From Rhizobium sp. Leaf262 (lineage in GTDB: Bacteria; Pseudomonadota; Alphaproteobacteria; Rhizobiales; Rhizobiaceae), in contig NZ_LMMM01000021.1 in the NCBI RefSeq assembly GCF_001422245.1, forward strand, positions 62,001 to 126,000: a stretch of DNA of 64,000 nucleotides, in the 5' to 3' direction. The notes below the pieces were generated by a model. The model was not told the DNA's origin, did not search any database, and saw only the letters and a program-made list of their open reading frames with translations. Numbering within the stretch: position 1 is the first letter of the stretch; every line of letters starts with the position of its first letter. Position numbers and translations under genes: made by a program. Shown here one piece after another: positions 3,064-11,504 of the stretch.

Positions 3064-4818
3064 ATGCTTTGGCTGGGAAAAAGCGCGGATGACCGGAATG
3101 TTCTGGAGGCCCTGTCGGCTTCTCAAGCCGTGATCGAATTCGACCTCAAAGGCAACATTCTGACGGCAAACAAAAATTTCTGTTCTGCTCTGGGGTATGA
3201 GCTGGCCGAGATCAAGGGCAAGCACCACCGGATATTCTGCGAGCCGGATTACGCGGGTTCCAAAGCTTACTCCGATTTTTGGGCAAGCCTTGGCAAAGGC
3301 AATTATGACGCCAGCGAATACAAGCGTATTTGCAAAGACGGTCGCCCGATCTGGATCGAAGCATCCTACAATCCCGTCAGCCGCAACGGCAAGCCCTACA
3401 AAGTCGTCAAGATCGCGATCGATATCACCGCCAAGAAGCTCAAGGCCTATGAAGACGAACGCACGCTGGAGGCTATCTCCCGTTCGCAGGCCGTTATCGA
3501 GTTCAAGCCGACCGGCGAGATCATCACCGCCAACGACAACTTCTGCAACACGCTGAACTACAGTCTGAGCGAGATAGCGGGAAAGCACCATCGCCTGTTT
3601 TGTGAGCCGGGCTATGCGGCATCCAAGGACTATGCGGATTTCTGGACGCGGTTGGCTGCGGGTGAATTCATTTCCGACGAATTCGTACGTTTCGGAAAGA
3701 ACGGCAAGGAAGTCTGGATACAGGCCGCCTATAACCCCATTCTCGACAGTAGCGGCAAAGTCGTCAAGGTCGTCAAGTTTGCCACCGATGTCACACCGCG
3801 TATGAGCGCGATTTCGACACTGGGCGCTGCCTTACGCCTTCTTGCAGAAGGCGAGTTGCAACAGCGGCTCGACACGGCGTTCGTTCCCAGCATGGAAAAA
3901 CTACGGGCAGATTTCAACGAAGTGATCGAGAAGCTACGCTCGACCATGCAGACGGTCGCCCAGAACGCCGCGACCATCGCCTCGGGCTCGGCCGAAATTC
4001 GCGTTGCCGCCGATCAGCTTGCCCGTCGCACGGAACAACAGGCCGCCTCGCTGGAAGAAAGCGCGGCAGCACTGGAAGAAATCACCACCACCGTCAAGGA
4101 CTCCAGCAGGCGCGCAGATGAAGCCGGCAAACTCGTAGGCTCGACAAAGCAGAGCGCCGAAGTCTCTGGCGACATCGTCCACCGCGCCATCGGTGCCATG
4201 GACCAAATCTCGCAGTCATCCGGCGAAATCACCAACATCATCGGCGTCATCGATGACATCGCTTTCCAGACGAACCTGCTCGCTCTCAATGCGGGCGTAG
4301 AGGCTGCCCGGGCTGGCGAAGCGGGCAAGGGCTTTGCAGTTGTGGCCCAGGAGGTGCGTGAACTTGCCCAGCGCTCCGCAAGCGCTGCCAAGGAAATCAA
4401 GCAGCTCATCAACACATCGCGCCAGCATGTGGCCAACGGTGTGGAACTGGTTGGCCAGACGGGTGATGCGCTGAAGGATATTGCCAACAAGGTCGGGCTG
4501 ATCGACGTCAACGTAACCGCGATTGTCGAGGCGTCGAAAGAACAGGCCAATGGCTTGGCGGAAATTAACGACGCCGTGAACCTGATGGATCAGGCAACGC
4601 AGAAGAACGCTGCCATGGTCGAAGAAACCACGGCTGCAAGTCATGGTCTCGCACGGGAGGCAGAAAGCCTGCGGCAATTGCTGACGCAGTTCAATGTCGG
4701 CAACAATTCGCAGCGTGTGTCGCAACAGGCGCCCGTGCCTCAACACGAAACACCCATGCCCCGTCTCGTCGCGGCGTCAGCCGGTGGATCAGCAGCGGCA
4801 AAATGGACTGAGTTTTGA
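3064..4818 (+). CDS. Soluble PAS-PAS methyl-accepting chemotaxis protein, paralog of the first
   Basis: This 584-aa receptor has the same layout as the one at 474: PAS at about 14-125, PAS at about 135-245, a HAMP-like linker, and an MCP signalling domain with the tip near 390-445. The two PAS domains resemble each other (SQAVIEF..GKHHR.FCEP.Y), indicating an internal duplication. There is no transmembrane segment, so it is expected in cytoplasmic arrays. Glu/Gln-Glu methylation-type heptads flank the tip, and the C-terminus KWTEF is a looser version of the CheR docking pentapeptide. The ATG has a GGAG ribosome site about 8 nt upstream. The ligand cannot be told from sequence. Confidence 0.92.
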   Translation: MLWLGKSADDRNVLEALSASQAVIEFDLKGNILTANKNFCSALGYELAEIKGKHHRIFCEPDYAGSKAYSDFWASLGKGNYDASEYKRICKDGRPIWIEASYNPVSRNGKPYKVVKIAIDITAKKLKAYEDERTLEAISRSQAVIEFKPTGEIITANDNFCNTLNYSLSEIAGKHHRLFCEPGYAASKDYADFWTRLAAGEFISDEFVRFGKNGKEVWIQAAYNPILDSSGKVVKVVKFATDVTPRMSAISTLGAALRLLAEGELQQRLDTAFVPSMEKLRADFNEVIEKLRSTMQTVAQNAATIASGSAEIRVAADQLARRTEQQAASLEESAAALEEITTTVKDSSRRADEAGKLVGSTKQSAEVSGDIVHRAIGAMDQISQSSGEITNIIGVIDDIAFQTNLLALNAGVEAARAGEAGKGFAVVAQEVRELAQRSASAAKEIKQLINTSRQHVANGVELVGQTGDALKDIANKVGLIDVNVTAIVEASKEQANGLAEINDAVNLMDQATQKNAAMVEETTAASHGLAREAESLRQLLTQFNVGNNSQRVSQQAPVPQHETPMPRLVAASAGGSAAAKWTEF

Positions 4819-4889: not shown

Positions 4890-6545
4890 TCAGGTGAACA
4901 GAACGAACGTCTTCTGCAGTGTGATCCAGATACCCCAAACGATTGGAATACCCACAACGGCCCATGCGATTGCAGCCTTGGCGTCGAAACCGCCCTTGCC
5001 GATACCGAAAGAACCTGTCGGACCGCTGCTGGCGGCCGTCGTCTTGGCCTGAAGGGCCGCGACTTCCTCGTCCGACATATACCACTTGTCTGCCAGCGGC
5101 TTGACCATGAGGTTGGCGATGAGGCCCAGCACCAGCATGCCAGCCAGGATATACATGGTGAAGTCATAGACCTGCGCGCGCGGGATACCGGCTGCGATCT
5201 GTGCTTCGCGGATGTAGTTCACCACGACCGGGCCGATAATGCCCGCCGTTGCCCATGCCGTCAGCAGTCGACCATGGATAGCACCCACGAACTGCGTGCC
5301 GAAGATATCGGCCAGATAAGCCGGGATCGTCGCAAAGCCGCCGCCATACATCGACACGATGATGCAGAGCATACCGACGAACAGCGCCTTGTTGCCAAGA
5401 CCTGCCGCCCATGGAGCAGACGCATAAAGCACGATGCCGAGCGCAAAGAATGTGAAGTACGTGCCTTTGCGGCCAATACGGTCAGACAGCGATGCCCAGA
5501 AGAAGCGGCCAGCGATGTTGAAAACCGAGAGAAGTCCGGTGAAGCCGGCAGCAATCGCGGCGATCTGTGCCAGTTGCTCAGGTGTCAGGTCGGCGAATTT
5601 CACTTCGGGAAGACCGATGAGCGAACCGGCGAAGATTTCCTGAAGCATGGGCGATGCCATGCCGAGAACGCCGATACCAGCCGAAACGTTGAGGCAAAGA
5701 ACGAGCCAGATCATCCAGAACTGCTTGGTCTTGTGCGCATTCTTGAGGTGCACGTGGCGGGTGGTGATCATCGAGTTCTTGGCCGCAGGTGCGGTCCAGC
5801 CTTCAGGCTTCCAGCCAGCAGGTGGAATGCGATAACCGAAAGCGCCAGCCATCATGAAGACGAAATAGATCGCAGCCATGACGAGGAAGGTTTCCCAGAC
5901 GCCGATGGAAACATCCGTGCGGAAGTGACGCATCAGCGCATCGGCAAGCGGTGCACCAATCATCGCGCCGCCGCCAAAGCCCATAATGGCCATACCGGTT
6001 GCCATGCCGCGACGGTCCGGGAACCACTTGATCAGAGTGGAAACCGGAGAAATGTAACCGAGGCCAAGGCCGATACCGCCGATGACGCCAGCGCCGAACC
6101 ACATCAGCCACAGCTGGTGGGTCATGATGCCAATGGCAGCGATGGTCATACCACCGCACCAGCAGATGGCGGATACGAAGCCTGCCTTGCGCGGACCAGC
6201 GCGTTCCAGCCAACCGCCCCAGATGGCCGCAGAGCAGCCGAGCAGCACGAAGAACAGCGTGTAGATCCAGCCGAGGTCACTGACGCGCCAGTCGCAGGTC
6301 GTCGTGAACAAAGCCGATGCCAGGTTGAGATCGGCGCAGGCGACGGTCGAGGTGATGCCGATTGCCTTGGTCAGCGGCAACCAGAATACCGAGAAGCCGT
6401 AAGCCATGCCGATGCAAAGATGGATGGCCAGCGCAGCCGGTGGAACCAGCCAACGGTTGAAACCGGGTTTGGCGATAATGCGTTCGCGGTCCAGGAGACC
6501 TGCACCCGCGGCCACCGGCGCGAGCGTTTCGTTCGTCGCAGTCAT
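4890..6545 (-). CDS. OFA-family MFS transporter (oxalate/formate antiporter type)
   Basis: This 551-aa inner-membrane protein has about 12 hydrophobic segments and the MFS loop motif DRIGRKG after TM8. It also has the OFA-type features of a long N-terminal segment with MAYGFSVFWLPL in TM1 and a central insertion between the halves. OFA carriers exchange or import small carboxylates such as oxalate, formate or pyruvate; the substrate here is not known. The ATG at 6545 has GGAGGG 6-8 nt upstream, whereas an in-frame ATG 18 bases earlier has no such site. A sigma54 promoter and paired dyads lie upstream, next to a sensor/regulator pair, so the gene is probably induced on demand by that pair. Confidence 0.85.
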   Translation of the reverse strand: MTATNETLAPVAAGAGLLDRERIIAKPGFNRWLVPPAALAIHLCIGMAYGFSVFWLPLTKAIGITSTVACADLNLASALFTTTCDWRVSDLGWIYTLFFVLLGCSAAIWGGWLERAGPRKAGFVSAICWCGGMTIAAIGIMTHQLWLMWFGAGVIGGIGLGLGYISPVSTLIKWFPDRRGMATGMAIMGFGGGAMIGAPLADALMRHFRTDVSIGVWETFLVMAAIYFVFMMAGAFGYRIPPAGWKPEGWTAPAAKNSMITTRHVHLKNAHKTKQFWMIWLVLCLNVSAGIGVLGMASPMLQEIFAGSLIGLPEVKFADLTPEQLAQIAAIAAGFTGLLSVFNIAGRFFWASLSDRIGRKGTYFTFFALGIVLYASAPWAAGLGNKALFVGMLCIIVSMYGGGFATIPAYLADIFGTQFVGAIHGRLLTAWATAGIIGPVVVNYIREAQIAAGIPRAQVYDFTMYILAGMLVLGLIANLMVKPLADKWYMSDEEVAALQAKTTAASSGPTGSFGIGKGGFDAKAAIAWAVVGIPIVWGIWITLQKTFVLFT

Positions 6546-6557
6546 GTGTGTCCCTCC

Positions 6558-6577
6558 ATTCACCGATATCGGTGAAT
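6558..6577. repeat. 20-bp perfect palindrome abutting the carrier ribosome site
   Basis: ATTCACCGATATCGGTGAAT is a perfect palindrome that ends exactly where the GGAGGG ribosome site of the OFA carrier begins on the minus strand. As DNA it could be an operator. As RNA it could fold into an 8-bp stem with a 4-nt loop next to the ribosome site. It lies in the roughly 190-nt leader downstream of the sigma54 promoter. Confidence 0.6.
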
Positions 6578-6745
6578 TTCGATGTTGTTATTCGTTCCGA
6601 GGTTTGCGGCGTGACCGTCGATTACTCGACAGGCCACGCCCTCATCCATATGAAACAATGTCCCAAGCCCACGGACCCGAAAGCGCGGCAGCTCCTTCTT
6701 TGGAACGCTCACACGCAAGGGTCTTTGTGTTGCCGATGACTACTC

Positions 6746-6761
6746 AGCAATTCCCGTGCCA
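6746..6761 (-). promoter_or_regulatory. Sigma54 (RpoN) -24/-12 promoter of the OFA carrier
   Basis: Read on the minus strand the sequence is TGGCACGGGAATTGCT. It matches the RpoN consensus TGGCACG-N4-TTGCW, with exactly 10 bases between the GG and GC dinucleotides. It points towards the carrier gene at 6545 and implies a start of transcription near 6735 and a leader of about 190 nt. The neighbouring regulator is of the sigma54-activating NtrC class, which supports the call. Confidence 0.85.
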
Positions 6762-6812
6762 GAAACAGAATTGTTATTTATCAAAGTGATAGTCGCAACG
6801 ACGCGAACCGCT

Positions 6813-6848
6813 GGGACAAATTGTCCCGGCAATGCGACAAAATGTCCG
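6813..6848. promoter_or_regulatory. Paired dyads, probable upstream activator sites
   Basis: GGGACAAATTGTCCC (6813-6827) is a 7-1-7 perfect palindrome. GCGACAAAATGTCCG (6834-6848) is a close copy. Their centres are 21 bp apart, two helical turns, and lie about 85 and 106 bp upstream of the predicted sigma54 transcription start. This is the usual geometry of enhancer sites for NtrC/DctD-type activators. The natural candidate protein is the response regulator encoded at 8910-10295. Confidence 0.7.
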
Positions 6849-6895
6849 CAATTTCGCTTTTATTTCGCCATTTTCGACATTAATCATCCAAGCAG

Positions 6896-8917
6896 TCAGA
6901 CAGCTTCCGGTAACCATATTGTAAAAGCGGTACCGCTGTTGACGGCGCTTTCGACAGTGATCTCCCCGCCCTGCCGTGCGACCAGCATCTGGCTGACAGA
7001 GAGGCCGAGCCCGGTTCCCTCCTGCCGTTTGGTCGTAAAAAACGGGTCGAAAATCCGCTCGACAACGTCTGCACTCATACCGACACCCGTGTCCGCAACG
7101 ATGATCGCGACACCTCTGGCTCCATGACGTTCTTCATCCACATCAGTCAAAGTGAGCGTGCCACCCTGCGGCATGGCATGGGCGGCATTGACAATGAGAT
7201 TGACCAGAACCTGTTGCAGTTCTGTCCGGTTCATCGCCAGAAGACCCTTGGCGCCGTCATGCCTGACGACATCGATGCCGGCACGATTCAAAACATGTTT
7301 GACCAGCGGCATGCAGTCGGAGATGACCGTACTCGGACTCTGGCGCTCCACATAACCGGCGAATTCTTCCGGCCGCGCGAATTGCAGAAGCTTGCCCACA
7401 ATTCTGCTGATGCGGTCGACCTGATCGTCGATCAGATTGAATTCGGTTCGGGCGACATCTGCCGTGTCACCAAGCATGGCGCGGGCGACTTCCAGATTGC
7501 CCTGTATGACGGCGATCGGATTGTTTATCTCATGGGCGACACCAGCGGTGATTTCACCGATCGTTGCCAGCTTTTCGGACATGACCAGCTGTTTCGTCGT
7601 GGCTTCGAGACGCAGATTGGCAAGCTGCAACTCCTGTGTTCGCTGCTCCACCCGTACGTTCAGCTCTTCGTTCCACGCCCGGAGTTCCCCCTCACGCTGC
7701 TGCAACCGATCCAGCAACTCATCGAGATGCACCGCCACCTGGCCGATTTCATCGCCGATCGGCGGCAGGCCGGTACGGGCGCCGAGGTCACCGTCATCGA
7801 CCTTGGAGATCGTCTGCGTCATTCTCTCCAGAGGTTTGAAGATACCTCTAGCCCATCGCAGGAAGACGGGAATACTGAGGATGGTGATTCCCAGAAAAGC
7901 CGCGATCACAGATCCCAGCGTTTCATATTTGGCACGCGCAAAGGGGGCTTCGAGAAAACCGACATACAGCATGCCGACCCGTTTCCCATAACTGTCTACC
8001 AGTGGCTCATAGGCTGAAATATACCAGTCATTGACGACAAAAGCGCTATCCAGCCAGACCTGCCCTGCCCCTAGAACGGCCGAATGCACCGCCTCCGACA
8101 CGCGAGTTCCCAGGGCACGGCGATTCTCGAACAGGCGAACATTGGTGCTGATCCTGACATCGTCCAGAAACAGCGTCGCAGTGCCTTGGCTTCCCTCGGG
8201 CAGGCTGGCCTGCCGATAGACGAGATCGTTGATCGTATCGATGAAGTCGAGATTCTGATTGAGCAACCGGCCGCCGACAAGTGCCGATGAACCGCCATCC
8301 GGCAGCCGCAGGGGGCTTGCGGCATGGATCATCATGCCTCGCGTTTCCACAGTCCTGTCGGCGGCATGTGCTGATTGGGTCGGGACGAGTTCGAGATGGG
8401 CTCGCTCGACAAGTGAAGGCGACAGGGCAGCCAAATCCTGCTGTGAGAAGATGTCGATCGCATAGGATGCCTTACCTGCGAGTGCCGTTGCCCGCACCGG
8501 CCAGTCTACGCGGATATTCGTCGCCCGCGTACCTGCGCTTGCAGAAATCTCACCCTTGCCATTTACGACAAAGAGAAAATCGAGATTGAGCTTTCTTCTG
8601 TTGTCCTCCAGAAGTGCAGCGAGCGAACCCTGATCTCCGCTAGCAACGATATCGCGCAACTGCACGGAATTGGTGATCGCTTCAAGACGTTCACCTGTAT
8701 TTTCCAGAATTGTCGCCAGATATTGATGGGCCACCGTCAAGTCGCTGTTGACCTTGGTTATGAGCAAGGCATCGAACTTGCCGCTCCAGCGCACCATGGT
8801 GACGCCGAGCAAGAGCGGCAGGATCACCAGCGTCGGCAACAAGGCGATTGCCAGAAGCCTGAAGCGGACAGACCGCAAGGCTTCGAAAAATGGGGGGAGG
8901 CCCGTCGTTTTAGCCAT
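6896..8917 (-). CDS. Membrane sensor histidine kinase (DctB-like architecture)
   Basis: This 673-aa kinase pairs with the regulator just upstream. In order it has TM1 at about residues 14-38, a large periplasmic domain of roughly 270 residues resembling a double Cache sensor, TM2, a HAMP region, a coiled linker, a HisKA domain with the phospho-acceptor His in GVAHEINNP near residue 459, and a HATPase with N and G boxes (NLIVNAAHAM, DTGVGM, GTGLGLS). The ATG at 8917 overlaps the regulator stop by 8 bases (ATGGCTAA), indicating coupling. The frame is open further upstream, but that part runs inside the regulator. It probably senses an extracytoplasmic small carboxylate; that ligand is inferred from the carrier next door. 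Confidence 0.9.
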   Translation of the reverse strand: MAKTTGLPPFFEALRSVRFRLLAIALLPTLVILPLLLGVTMVRWSGKFDALLITKVNSDLTVAHQYLATILENTGERLEAITNSVQLRDIVASGDQGSLAALLEDNRRKLNLDFLFVVNGKGEISASAGTRATNIRVDWPVRATALAGKASYAIDIFSQQDLAALSPSLVERAHLELVPTQSAHAADRTVETRGMMIHAASPLRLPDGGSSALVGGRLLNQNLDFIDTINDLVYRQASLPEGSQGTATLFLDDVRISTNVRLFENRRALGTRVSEAVHSAVLGAGQVWLDSAFVVNDWYISAYEPLVDSYGKRVGMLYVGFLEAPFARAKYETLGSVIAAFLGITILSIPVFLRWARGIFKPLERMTQTISKVDDGDLGARTGLPPIGDEIGQVAVHLDELLDRLQQREGELRAWNEELNVRVEQRTQELQLANLRLEATTKQLVMSEKLATIGEITAGVAHEINNPIAVIQGNLEVARAMLGDTADVARTEFNLIDDQVDRISRIVGKLLQFARPEEFAGYVERQSPSTVISDCMPLVKHVLNRAGIDVVRHDGAKGLLAMNRTELQQVLVNLIVNAAHAMPQGGTLTLTDVDEERHGARGVAIIVADTGVGMSADVVERIFDPFFTTKRQEGTGLGLSVSQMLVARQGGEITVESAVNSGTAFTIWLPEAV

Positions 8918-10295
8918 GCCAGGACGACATTTTACGATCGATCGTCTTGCGCGAAATGCCCAGACGCTTGGCCGTTTCATCACGATTTCCGGCCATTTCA
9001 CTGAGCACAGCCAGGATGTGTCGTCGCTCGACCTCCTCAAGCGTGCCGGTTGCGGCTGCAGCGGAACCGCTTGCGCGCAAATCAAGTGGGAACCGACCCA
9101 GAATAAGGCTCCGTTCGATAAAATTGCGCAATTCACGAACGTTGCCGGGCCAATGATAGGCGAGCAGCATGGCGCGCACCGCATCGTCAATTGCCACGGG
9201 CGGCATGCCCAGTTGCTGCGACAGCTTGTTCATGAACAGCTCGGTCAATTCCAAGACGTCTTGCTCACGGTCACGCAACGGAGCCAGATAGATTTGCATG
9301 ACATTGATGCGATAGAACAAATCCGCCCTGAACCGCCCCTTCTCCACATCGGCAGCCAGATCGGCATTTGTCGCAAAGATGAAGCGGATGTCGACAGGCA
9401 CCTCCCGCTCCGCGCCCACAGGTCGAATTTTTCTATCTTCGATCACACGCAGAAGCTTGCTTTGGAGTGCTATCGGCATCTCGCCGATCTCATCCAGAAA
9501 CAGCGTTCCGCCCTGCGCATGCAGGAACAACCCTTCCCGCCGGGTGTCTGCACCTGTGAAAGCGCCTTTCACATGGCCAAAAAGCTCCGTTTCCAGCATG
9601 TCTGCAGGAATGGCCGCACAGTTGATCGGCACGAACGGCTTGTCGGCCCGATCCGACAGGTCGTGGATGGAATGCGCCAGAACTTCCTTGCCCGTACCAG
9701 ACTCCCCGGTGAGCAGCACCGATGTGGGCAGCGGCGCAACACGGCTGATCATTTCTCGGGTCTGCTGAATGGTGGCCGAGCTTCCCACCAGCTTGTCGCG
9801 CAGGAAAATATGTTCGGATGCCGTCTTCAATTGATATTTCAGCGCCGAATTTTCCCGCTGCAGATTTGAACGGTCGAGGGATCGTGAGATGGCATTGAGA
9901 ATCTGGTTCGAGCGGAACGGCTTCAACACGAAGTCTGCCGCACCCGCACGGATGGCCTGAATGGCGGTGTCCAGATCGGCATAGGCGGTCATTAAAATCG
10001 CGTCTGCATAAAATCCGATCGCTCTTTGCTCAGCCAGCCATTCCAGCCCCGTCTTTTTCGGCATGATGTTATCGAGAATGACGATATCGAAATGTCGCTC
10101 ATCAAGTTTTCGCGTGGCCTCCGCCGTGTCGGCTGCCTCATCGACAAAACCGCAACGGGTTTCGAGGGTCCGCATCAGGAAATTACGCATACCCGGCTCG
10201 TCATCGATGATGAGAATGGATGCCTTCGCCAACCATGGGCCGAAGTCAGTTTCCGACGTGGTGTGCCGTGTCTTGGAAATCGGGTCTTGCTGCAT
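8910..10295 (-). CDS. Sigma54-dependent NtrC/DctD-type response regulator
   Basis: This 461-aa protein has a receiver domain with the acidic pair DD at 31-32 and the phospho-acceptor D75 (VILDNIMP). An AAA+ domain follows with Walker A GESGTGKE and the sigma54-contacting loop GAFTGA, and it ends in a Fis-type helix-turn-helix (NRDETAKRLGISRKTIDRKM). Such regulators bind upstream sites and drive RpoN polymerase. The ATG at 10295 has GGGAG 6-7 nt upstream; the frame opens at a TTG 39 bases earlier without one. It is followed by its overlapping sensor kinase. Its likely target is the OFA carrier, whose promoter has matching elements. Confidence 0.93.
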   Translation of the reverse strand: MQQDPISKTRHTTSETDFGPWLAKASILIIDDEPGMRNFLMRTLETRCGFVDEAADTAEATRKLDERHFDIVILDNIMPKKTGLEWLAEQRAIGFYADAILMTAYADLDTAIQAIRAGAADFVLKPFRSNQILNAISRSLDRSNLQRENSALKYQLKTASEHIFLRDKLVGSSATIQQTREMISRVAPLPTSVLLTGESGTGKEVLAHSIHDLSDRADKPFVPINCAAIPADMLETELFGHVKGAFTGADTRREGLFLHAQGGTLFLDEIGEMPIALQSKLLRVIEDRKIRPVGAEREVPVDIRFIFATNADLAADVEKGRFRADLFYRINVMQIYLAPLRDREQDVLELTELFMNKLSQQLGMPPVAIDDAVRAMLLAYHWPGNVRELRNFIERSLILGRFPLDLRASGSAAAATGTLEEVERRHILAVLSEMAGNRDETAKRLGISRKTIDRKMSSWHG

Positions 10296-10448
10296 GCTCG
10301 TCTCCCGGAACCGCCGTGGGACGCAGCCCGTCAAATAGGGTCGTGAAAGCAGCAGGGCATCGCGTTGCTGGCCATGCCGCTGACATTTCGAATGATGCTC
10401 AATGGACGAATATCAAAACCGGCGAACAAATCAAAACGATTGCATGGG

Positions 10449-11282
10449 TTACATTTGCGATTCTGCGGACGCGCCGGAAAAGACAATGCGATCCGGCCGC
10501 GTAAATATTTCCATATCGTCACCTCTCACAAGAGCAACCAGTGTCATGCCAGCTTTGTGCGCGGTCTCGATTGCGAGCGCCGTGGGAGCGGATACAGCAG
10601 CAAGGATTGGGCTTCCCAGCAGCGCCGCCTTCTGTACCATTTCAACGGATATACGGCTGGTGACGACGACAACACCAGATGCCCCTTCAAATCCTCCACG
10701 CAGCACACCGCCAGCGAGCTTGTCCAGCGCATTGTGGCGACCGACATCCTCTCGCGCAGCAATCAGGCCGCGTTGGGGGACGTAAAAGCCCGCTCCGTGA
10801 ACCGCTCGGGTCTGGCGAAAAACGAGCTGCGCTTCGTGCAGCGCTTCCATGGCGAGCACCAGTTCTGCCGTTTCCAAAGCGAGCGTTGCCTTGGATACAT
10901 CCGGAACCGGCCTCACAGCCTGCTCGATGGATTCAATGCCACAAAGCCCACAGCCGACCGGGCCCGCCATGTGGCGCCTGCGCAGCCGCAACGCATCCGC
11001 CTGCTGATCAAGCAACGTCACCTGCACATCATAGCCCTGCTCGGTGCGAATAACGTCAACCGCCTCGATCTGTTCAGGATCGGAAATGATGCCTTCAGTC
11101 AAGCTGAAGCCGTAAGCGAAGTCCTCCAGATCAATCGGCGACGCCATCATGACGGCATGGGTTGATCCACCATAGGAGAACGCGACCGGGACTTCTTCCG
11201 CTACCTCTCGATCGCCTGTCGTGACAGAGCCGTTTTTCAGCGCGATGCGCGTGAGAGAACGAAAGGCTGATATGGCAGACAT
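10449..11282 (-). CDS. fdhD: Formate dehydrogenase accessory sulfurtransferase FdhD
   Basis: This 277-aa FdhD-family protein carries the paired cysteines C111 and C114 in CGLCG, which pass sulfur from IscS to the molybdenum cofactor of formate dehydrogenase. The stretches EDFAYGFSLTEGII and AREDVGRHNALDKL are family hallmarks. I chose ATG 11282, which has AGAGG 7 nt upstream, over an ATG 24 bases earlier with a poor site. The formate dehydrogenase genes themselves are not in the window. It lies 153 bp upstream of the sigma54 regulator on the same strand, so a link between formate metabolism and the OFA carrier is possible but not shown. Confidence 0.93.
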   Translation of the reverse strand: MSAISAFRSLTRIALKNGSVTTGDREVAEEVPVAFSYGGSTHAVMMASPIDLEDFAYGFSLTEGIISDPEQIEAVDVIRTEQGYDVQVTLLDQQADALRLRRRHMAGPVGCGLCGIESIEQAVRPVPDVSKATLALETAELVLAMEALHEAQLVFRQTRAVHGAGFYVPQRGLIAAREDVGRHNALDKLAGGVLRGGFEGASGVVVVTSRISVEMVQKAALLGSPILAAVSAPTALAIETAHKAGMTLVALVRGDDMEIFTRPDRIVFSGASAESQM

Positions 11283-11504
11283 GGCAAACCTCTGTGATAG
11301 CGCCATCAGGCGGAAACATCACGGCGTATGGATTGTGGAAGCAACAGTGACCAACAGTTTGAGTGTGTCTTCATCAAATGACAACGCCCTAACCGAGCGA
11401 CACATCTCCCATTTGAAGCACCCTCACGTGAACCCGCTGCCCGTTCAGGCGAAGCTTTCCGAAGGGCCAGATAACGCTAGACCCCAAAACCCATCCACAA
11501 AAAG

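Follow-up and report, generated by a model that had tools for sequence, protein, structure and literature searches.

Layout of the locus

What does a carrier of the MFS type transport when its gene lies behind a sigma54 promoter and beside genes for a sensor kinase, an NtrC-type regulator, and FdhD, and which signal calls for it? This question is raised by a locus in a 64,000-nucleotide stretch of DNA from Rhizobium sp. Leaf262 (hereafter the window), in which fdhD, regulator, kinase, and carrier all lie on the minus strand, with the start of the kinase gene overlapped by the regulator gene by 8 nt (Table 1). The reading favoured here is that of a self-contained, formate-inducible formate uptake module; taking wiring, signal, and cargo, which depend on one another, jointly, and arguing from sequence comparison, a probability of about 0.6 is assigned to it.

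Most of the parts had been named in an initial annotation of this DNA, which reported a perfect RpoN promoter before the carrier, an adjoining NtrC-type regulator with GAFTGA, an adjoining Cache-type sensor kinase, and fdhD beside them. All of these are present: the promoter reads TGGCACGGGAATTGCT at 6761-6746, the regulator contains the motif, Pfam finds sCache_3_3, HAMP, HisKA, and HATPase in the kinase, and fdhD exceeds the cut-off of TIGR00129 and is the sole PF02634 match in the 5.05-Mb genome. Two like dyads, said to lie 21 bp apart, are indeed spaced by 21 bp from start to start, albeit at 6812-6847 rather than 6813-6848, a difference of one base. Their distance of 85-106 bp upstream is close to the centres near -83 and -104 found here, counted from the predicted transcription start at around 6736. 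The window has no Rfam match at gathering scores. Two long methyl-accepting chemotaxis-type proteins (384-2252 and 3064-4818; read from translations) adjoin the carrier, in a position that is kept in most close relatives' loci and absent from L042.

Table 1. Features of the carrier locus, in coordinates of the window
Feature	Position	Strand	Basis and remarks
Carrier, MFS, OFA/SLC16-like group	4890..6545	-	ATG start; Pfam MFS_1, NCBIfam; proposed formate carrier
Carrier mRNA leader, ~190 nt, predicted start ~6736	6546..6736 (about)	-	Block and hairpin, Agrobacterium group
Sigma54 -24/-12 promoter, TGGCACGGGAATTGCT	6746..6761	-	Perfect match, pattern TGGCAC-N5-TTGC
IHF-like site, 1 mismatch, between dyads and promoter	6779..6791	.	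Pattern match
Promoter-proximal dyad, TGGGACAAATTGTCC, candidate regulator site	6812..6826	.	Sequence and conservation
Promoter-distal dyad, TGCGACAAAATGTCC, candidate regulator site	6833..6847	.	Sequence and conservation
Sensor histidine kinase: double-Cache periplasmic part, HAMP, HisKA, HATPase	6896..8917	-	Pfam, alignment, structure comparison
NtrC-type response regulator: receiver, AAA+ with GAFTGA, Fis-type HTH	8910..10295	-	Pfam, motif
fdhD	10449..11306	-	PF02634; TIGR00129 194.7 bits (cut-off 140.9)

The carrier and its binding pocket

The carrier is the sole match of its kind in the genome at E 0.001. Its only Pfam match is MFS_1, and its best NCBIfam model is that of the L-lactate transporter SfMCT (NF049980), whose cut-off of 320 bits it narrowly fails to reach with 306.3 bits. 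Scores against the OFA model TIGR00890 (150.4 bits, cut-off 374.85) and the oxalate/formate antiporter model TIGR04259 (115.1 bits, cut-off 335) also stay below threshold. Fused to the C terminus is a tail that matches the 'MFS transporter small subunit' (window 4890-4980; NF047966, 31.6 bits, cut-off 24); in genome G024, a separate short match to this tail is found on another contig.

In the accessible part of the SfMCT report, replacement of R280, N276, or Y119 abolished lactate transport (PMC6573034). The counterparts of these residues in the carrier are R348, N344, and Y165, forming an SfMCT-like pocket with an arginine on TM8, an asparagine four residues before it, and a tyrosine on TM4. 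Each of the 115 carriers has R348 and Y165, and N344 is present in 7/7 sequences of one alignment. The arginine R272 of OxlT is kept as well, while the position of OxlT K355 is taken by tryptophan (W432) in all 115 carriers. In OxlT, K355 is the second substrate residue. One carboxylate-binding arginine without a second positive residue fits a monocarboxylate as the probable cargo.

This pocket leaves room for a reading in which the same circuit has another small monocarboxylate—lactate, pyruvate, or acetate—as both signal and cargo, with the linkage to formate dehydrogenase (FDH) genes reflecting a general one-carbon context. Both the SfMCT model score and the three residues shared with a lactate transporter speak for it, as do 24 Pseudomonas-group carriers that lie away from FDH. 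What counts against it comes from the sensor and from the genomic neighbourhood of the carrier.

The sensor kinase

The periplasmic part of the kinase is a double Cache domain with a conserved membrane-proximal module and a poorly conserved distal module. In double Cache domains, the ligand is usually bound at the distal module. The kinase matches PF17202 (sCache_3_3) with 97.9 bits (cut-off 28.8), and an R-x2-T-x12-T pattern made up of R256, T259, and T272 is invariant in 31 of 31 aligned kinases. The residues of the corresponding formate pattern in PacF are R142, T145, and T158, as given in the accessible text of PMC12501870. The membrane-proximal module also resembles 8py1, a chemoreceptor domain solved with formate, although DctB and other Cache domains equal or surpass its score; in the list of the best 50 matches, 8py1 stands 20th by Z and 8py0 is absent.

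Both this pattern and the likeness to a formate-bound chemoreceptor domain stand against lactate, pyruvate, or acetate as the signal. A further point in the same direction is that, in the portion of PMC12415202 available, lactate- or pyruvate-binding domains are of the sCache_2 type, whereas an sCache_3_3 domain bound formate. In Atu0526, replacement R115A raised the affinity for formate yet abolished the response (PMC8698456, accessible part). Points against the formate reading are this raised affinity, the usual binding of ligands at the distal module of double Cache domains, and the fact that the formate-type module has been reported in chemoreceptors rather than kinases. Taken together, formate outside the cell is reasonably likely to be the signal.

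Formate dehydrogenase genes around the carrier

The genome of the window belongs to the Agrobacterium genus group. Of 37 genomes in this group, its own and those of 36 relatives, 33 have the carrier as one of two types, 13 at 93-100% identity and 20 at 78-82%. Carriers of the second type come after fdsA, which is itself preceded by fdsB, fdsG, and a LysR-like gene (translations read in L053, L056, and L057), and in three genomes fdhD lies between fdsA and the carrier. In a survey of 22 of the 36 genus relatives together with the window's genome, the TIGR01591 cut-off is exceeded in 12/12 second-type genomes, at a distance of about 4 kb or less from the carrier, compared with 0/10 first-type genomes (the window's included) and 0/1 carrier-less genome. 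Within the Agrobacterium-group genomes sampled, the carrier accompanies either FDH genes and no kinase/regulator pair (12/12) or the pair, the genome then lacking that FDH (10/10).

The linkage recurs across many genera. Among named loci, which are the best 80 of 591 and lie within the 115 carriers, 33 of 80 have an FDH alpha-like gene near the carrier (10 of 19 with the pair, 23 of 61 without), and a weaker match lies near the carrier at two more, in Xanthomonas and Variovorax. The cut-off of TIGR01591 was passed by all three alpha genes tried, and in L056 and L060 besides; the Xanthomonas gene passed that of TIGR01701. The gene order is FdsG-FdsB-FdsA-fdhD-regulator-kinase-carrier in Ciceribacter and FdsB-FdsA-fdhD-regulator-kinase-carrier in Pararhizobium, which is the order of the window with the FDH genes retained. 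Regulator, kinase, and carrier followed by FDH are seen at six Bradyrhizobium loci and in Frigidibacter, Pannonibacter, and G047. The fdhD gene beside the module is probably the remnant of an FDH operon, because the gene orders of relatives (L081, L076) carry FDH genes there.

FDH is common generally, which weakens this linkage as evidence for formate; in other families, FDH exceeds the cut-off in 11 of 14 genomes and any carrier match is found in just 4 of the 14. No FDH lies near the carrier in the surveyed DNA of 9 of the 19 named pair-linked loci (from the best 80 of 591) or of 24/24 Pseudomonas-group loci. Three Pseudomonas carrier loci that were examined have his genes (translations read) and others, with no FDH match, and across six loci of pair-linked carriers without FDH there is no constant extra neighbour gene. 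Set against the FDH linkage and the features of the sensor, another small monocarboxylate as signal and cargo is unlikely, and the cargo is probably formate.

The carrier might instead export formate or buffer its level, detoxifying formate that arises internally, with the sensor reporting what has leaked out. That the window genome contains no FDH over the TIGR01591 cut-off counts against the favoured reading and agrees with such a role; the position of the relatives' carrier beside FDH genes and the retention of fdhD argue against it and make it improbable. The window genome does have three FdhF/YdeP-family enzymes over TIGR01701 (contigs C17, C3, and C20), which are candidate users of FdhD and formate.

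Formate or oxalate had been named at the outset as the possible cargo, and of these two, formate gains from the context and the sensor, whereas oxalate is disfavoured. The OFA family name would suit an Oxalobacter-like oxalate:formate exchange module, as would the rank of OxlT (8hpj) as second match of the carrier by sequence among solved structures (E 3.2e-16) and an oxalyl-CoA decarboxylase over cut-off in the pair-bearing Bradyrhizobium genomes L093 and L107 and in the pair-less L109. These are, however, 3 of 16 genomes, with the window's not among them (this decarboxylase being the sole oxalate enzyme searched), and in L093 and L107 the enzyme is encoded off the carrier's contig. Together with the invariant tryptophan at the K355 position and the low TIGR04259 score, this renders the exchange of oxalate highly improbable.

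The promoter and its paired dyads

As standalone proof of regulation, the perfect -24/-12 box is rejected, being near chance in both genome and window: the 5.05-Mb genome has 5 perfect matches as opposed to 2 in the reversed control, and if up to two mismatches are allowed, the window yields 15 sites where 14.2 are expected. Of the dyad pair, the genome contains a single copy (0 in the reversed control), which reveals no further regulon members elsewhere in it. Apart from those of the module, four perfect -24/-12 sites and two single dyads occur in the genome. At L002, a perfect box (1501-1516) is followed after about 200 bases by a substrate-binding protein over the cut-off for a putative urea ABC transporter; at L005, the one neighbour scanned has no NCBIfam match at E 1e-20.

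Conservation gives a different picture, and box and dyads are counted as real because they are conserved together with the kinase/regulator pair across carriers. Paired dyads, scored as two dyads spaced by 20-24 bp with no more than one mismatch in either, lie upstream of 32 of the 33 pair-linked carriers—many of whose promoters are from close relatives and one of which, L075, is on a contig that ends before the pair could show—and of 0 of the 82 carriers without a kinase/regulator pair, some of which have little upstream DNA (L099, for example, has 175 bases). A box with one mismatch or none precedes 31/33 pair-linked carriers versus 5/82 others, and a single dyad precedes 1/82 of the latter. 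In 1650 mononucleotide shuffles, the dyad pair appeared 0 times, a single dyad 37 times, and the box 17 times. The Rhodopila carrier of L149, in a neighbourhood of FDH and fdhD, is preceded upstream of 4172 by one near-dyad and a weak box, with the pair not seen in the surveyed DNA.

The comparison with relatives that the initial annotation had suggested comes out in its favour, dyads and boxes being kept in 12/12 close relatives; in the alignment of these 13 promoters (the window's included), the block between dyads and box is kept too and the flanks drift. The putative IHF-like site at 6779-6791 falls inside this conserved block, although with 1 found versus 1.33 expected it is alone not above chance.

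Trees were built from hand-picked subsets of 71 and 66 of the 115 carriers, with 3/24 of the Pseudomonas group, for example, included. In the tree of 66, which excludes L060, L099, L114, L143, and L150, presence of the pair switches seven times and the dyads agree with it in every row (27/27 with the pair versus 0/39 without). Five of the switches lie on fully supported branches, and all five are concordant (sign test p 0.0625). The gene set, the promoter, the dyads, and their joint gain and loss are thereby established at the level of sequence, and the neighbouring pair very probably controls the carrier through sigma54. That dyads and box are chance occurrences, with the carrier outside the control of its neighbours, is scarcely credible, since only the near-chance frequency of the box taken alone speaks for it, against paired dyads at 32/33 versus 0/82 carriers and at 27/27 versus 0/39 in the tree.

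The regulators conform to this wiring in nearly all cases: GAFTGA is present in 30 of 32, and the Fis-type helix is almost invariant. The L077 regulator has GAFTNA instead and a normal promoter. In genome G047, the regulator of L060 (5743-7104) has lost GAFTGA, and the promoter (8980-9100) retains a pair of GGACAATTTGTC sites at a spacing of 42 bp as well as a third near-match, with no -24/-12 box at the thresholds used; the genome has rpoN. Loss of sigma54 contact loop and box with retention of the operator is as the proposed wiring predicts, in this one case.

The carrier leader was considered as a further part and left out of the module because its block and hairpin are limited to the Agrobacterium group. 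There, the block GGGCTTGGGAC is invariant in 11/11 aligned carrier leaders (window 6546-6740), and in the predicted fold both partners are altered in at least one sequence for 17 of the 47 pairs; neither block nor hairpin is found in the leaders of other genera or in L051.

Proposed mechanism

From these parts we infer phosphorylation, regulator binding, formate as signal and cargo, and the direction of transport. Periplasmic formate would bind at the membrane-proximal Cache module of the kinase, which would then phosphorylate the NtrC-type regulator encoded alongside. This regulator would occupy the two dyads, placed two helical turns apart, and, possibly assisted by bending of the DNA between dyads and promoter, would open the sigma54 promoter such that the carrier is transcribed. 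The carrier, a putative one-arginine MFS monocarboxylate transporter, would import formate, probably with a proton, and the imported formate would pass to molybdenum formate dehydrogenases dependent on the neighbouring FdhD.

On a wider view, there is an even chance that the pair represents a widespread two-component family for extracellular formate, which would bind its ligand at the proximal module, act on a sigma54-dependent formate carrier, and have been gained and lost repeatedly beside a carrier that otherwise accompanies FDH genes. Within such a family, G047 would be a lineage without contact loop or clear box in which sensor and dyads are kept.

Comparison with known systems

Formate is an exchange metabolite in soil, near plants, and in one-carbon biotechnology, and, to our knowledge, firm assignments of bacterial formate importers are few apart from FocA. 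By pointing to one group of carriers, to a sensor module recognisable from a short residue signature, and to a DNA site, the proposed kit makes formate import and sensing testable; it could also serve as a biosensor for external formate. The shift of the carrier between an enzyme operon and dedicated sensing is a natural experiment.

In the literature surveyed by title and abstract, with few subscription papers covered, neither a formate two-component system nor its carrier was recognised, and no match for the complete kit of sensor, promoter, and carrier emerged. The accessible parts of PMC11540253 and PMC12421819 do not name a formate transporter of this kind. An oxalate/formate antiporter gene was mutated in formate-tolerant M. 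extorquens (PMC12445348) and one was induced by methanol in P. putida (PMC10308882), according to the accessible text of each report.

The closest parallel in layout is DctA-DctB-DctD, which likewise combines a double-Cache kinase, an NtrC-type GAFTGA regulator, a sigma54 promoter, tandem dyads, and a single carrier. The carrier of the present module is, however, an MFS protein (MFS_1 only) and not DctA, and for this reason the module is not counted as a DctABD member; in addition, the conserved sensor module is here the membrane-proximal one, like the formate-bound chemoreceptor domain. The initial description of a layout similar to dctA-dctB-dctD with a different carrier, serving inducible, sigma54-dependent uptake of a small carboxylate, is well supported, with promoter, dyads, and gene order conserved together; as a whole, with its alternative of oxalate, that interpretation is partly supported.

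The sensor shares the R-x2-T-x12-T pattern and the likeness of the module with the PacF, 8py0, and 8py1 domains, and the conserved arginine with Atu0526 and McpF. All of these are chemotaxis receptors, whereas in the present locus the module is part of a kinase encoded next to a transcription regulator and is joined by an extra, poorly conserved distal module. With SfMCT and OxlT, the carrier has in common the MFS family, the R280/N276/Y119-type pocket, and the arginine R272 of OxlT; it differs from them in the invariant tryptophan in place of OxlT K355, the fused small-subunit tail, and the proposed formate cargo. A sister carrier follows fdsA in the fds operons of other Agrobacterium-group genomes, sometimes with fdhD between the two, but in the window the carrier adjoins the kinase/regulator pair and the genome is without an FDH alpha gene over cut-off. 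The best-known formate-responsive regulator is FhlA, a sigma54 activator of E. coli that senses formate inside the cell and has no kinase. Formate input to a sigma54 activator would be common to both systems, with sensing here taking place in the periplasm by way of a two-component pair.
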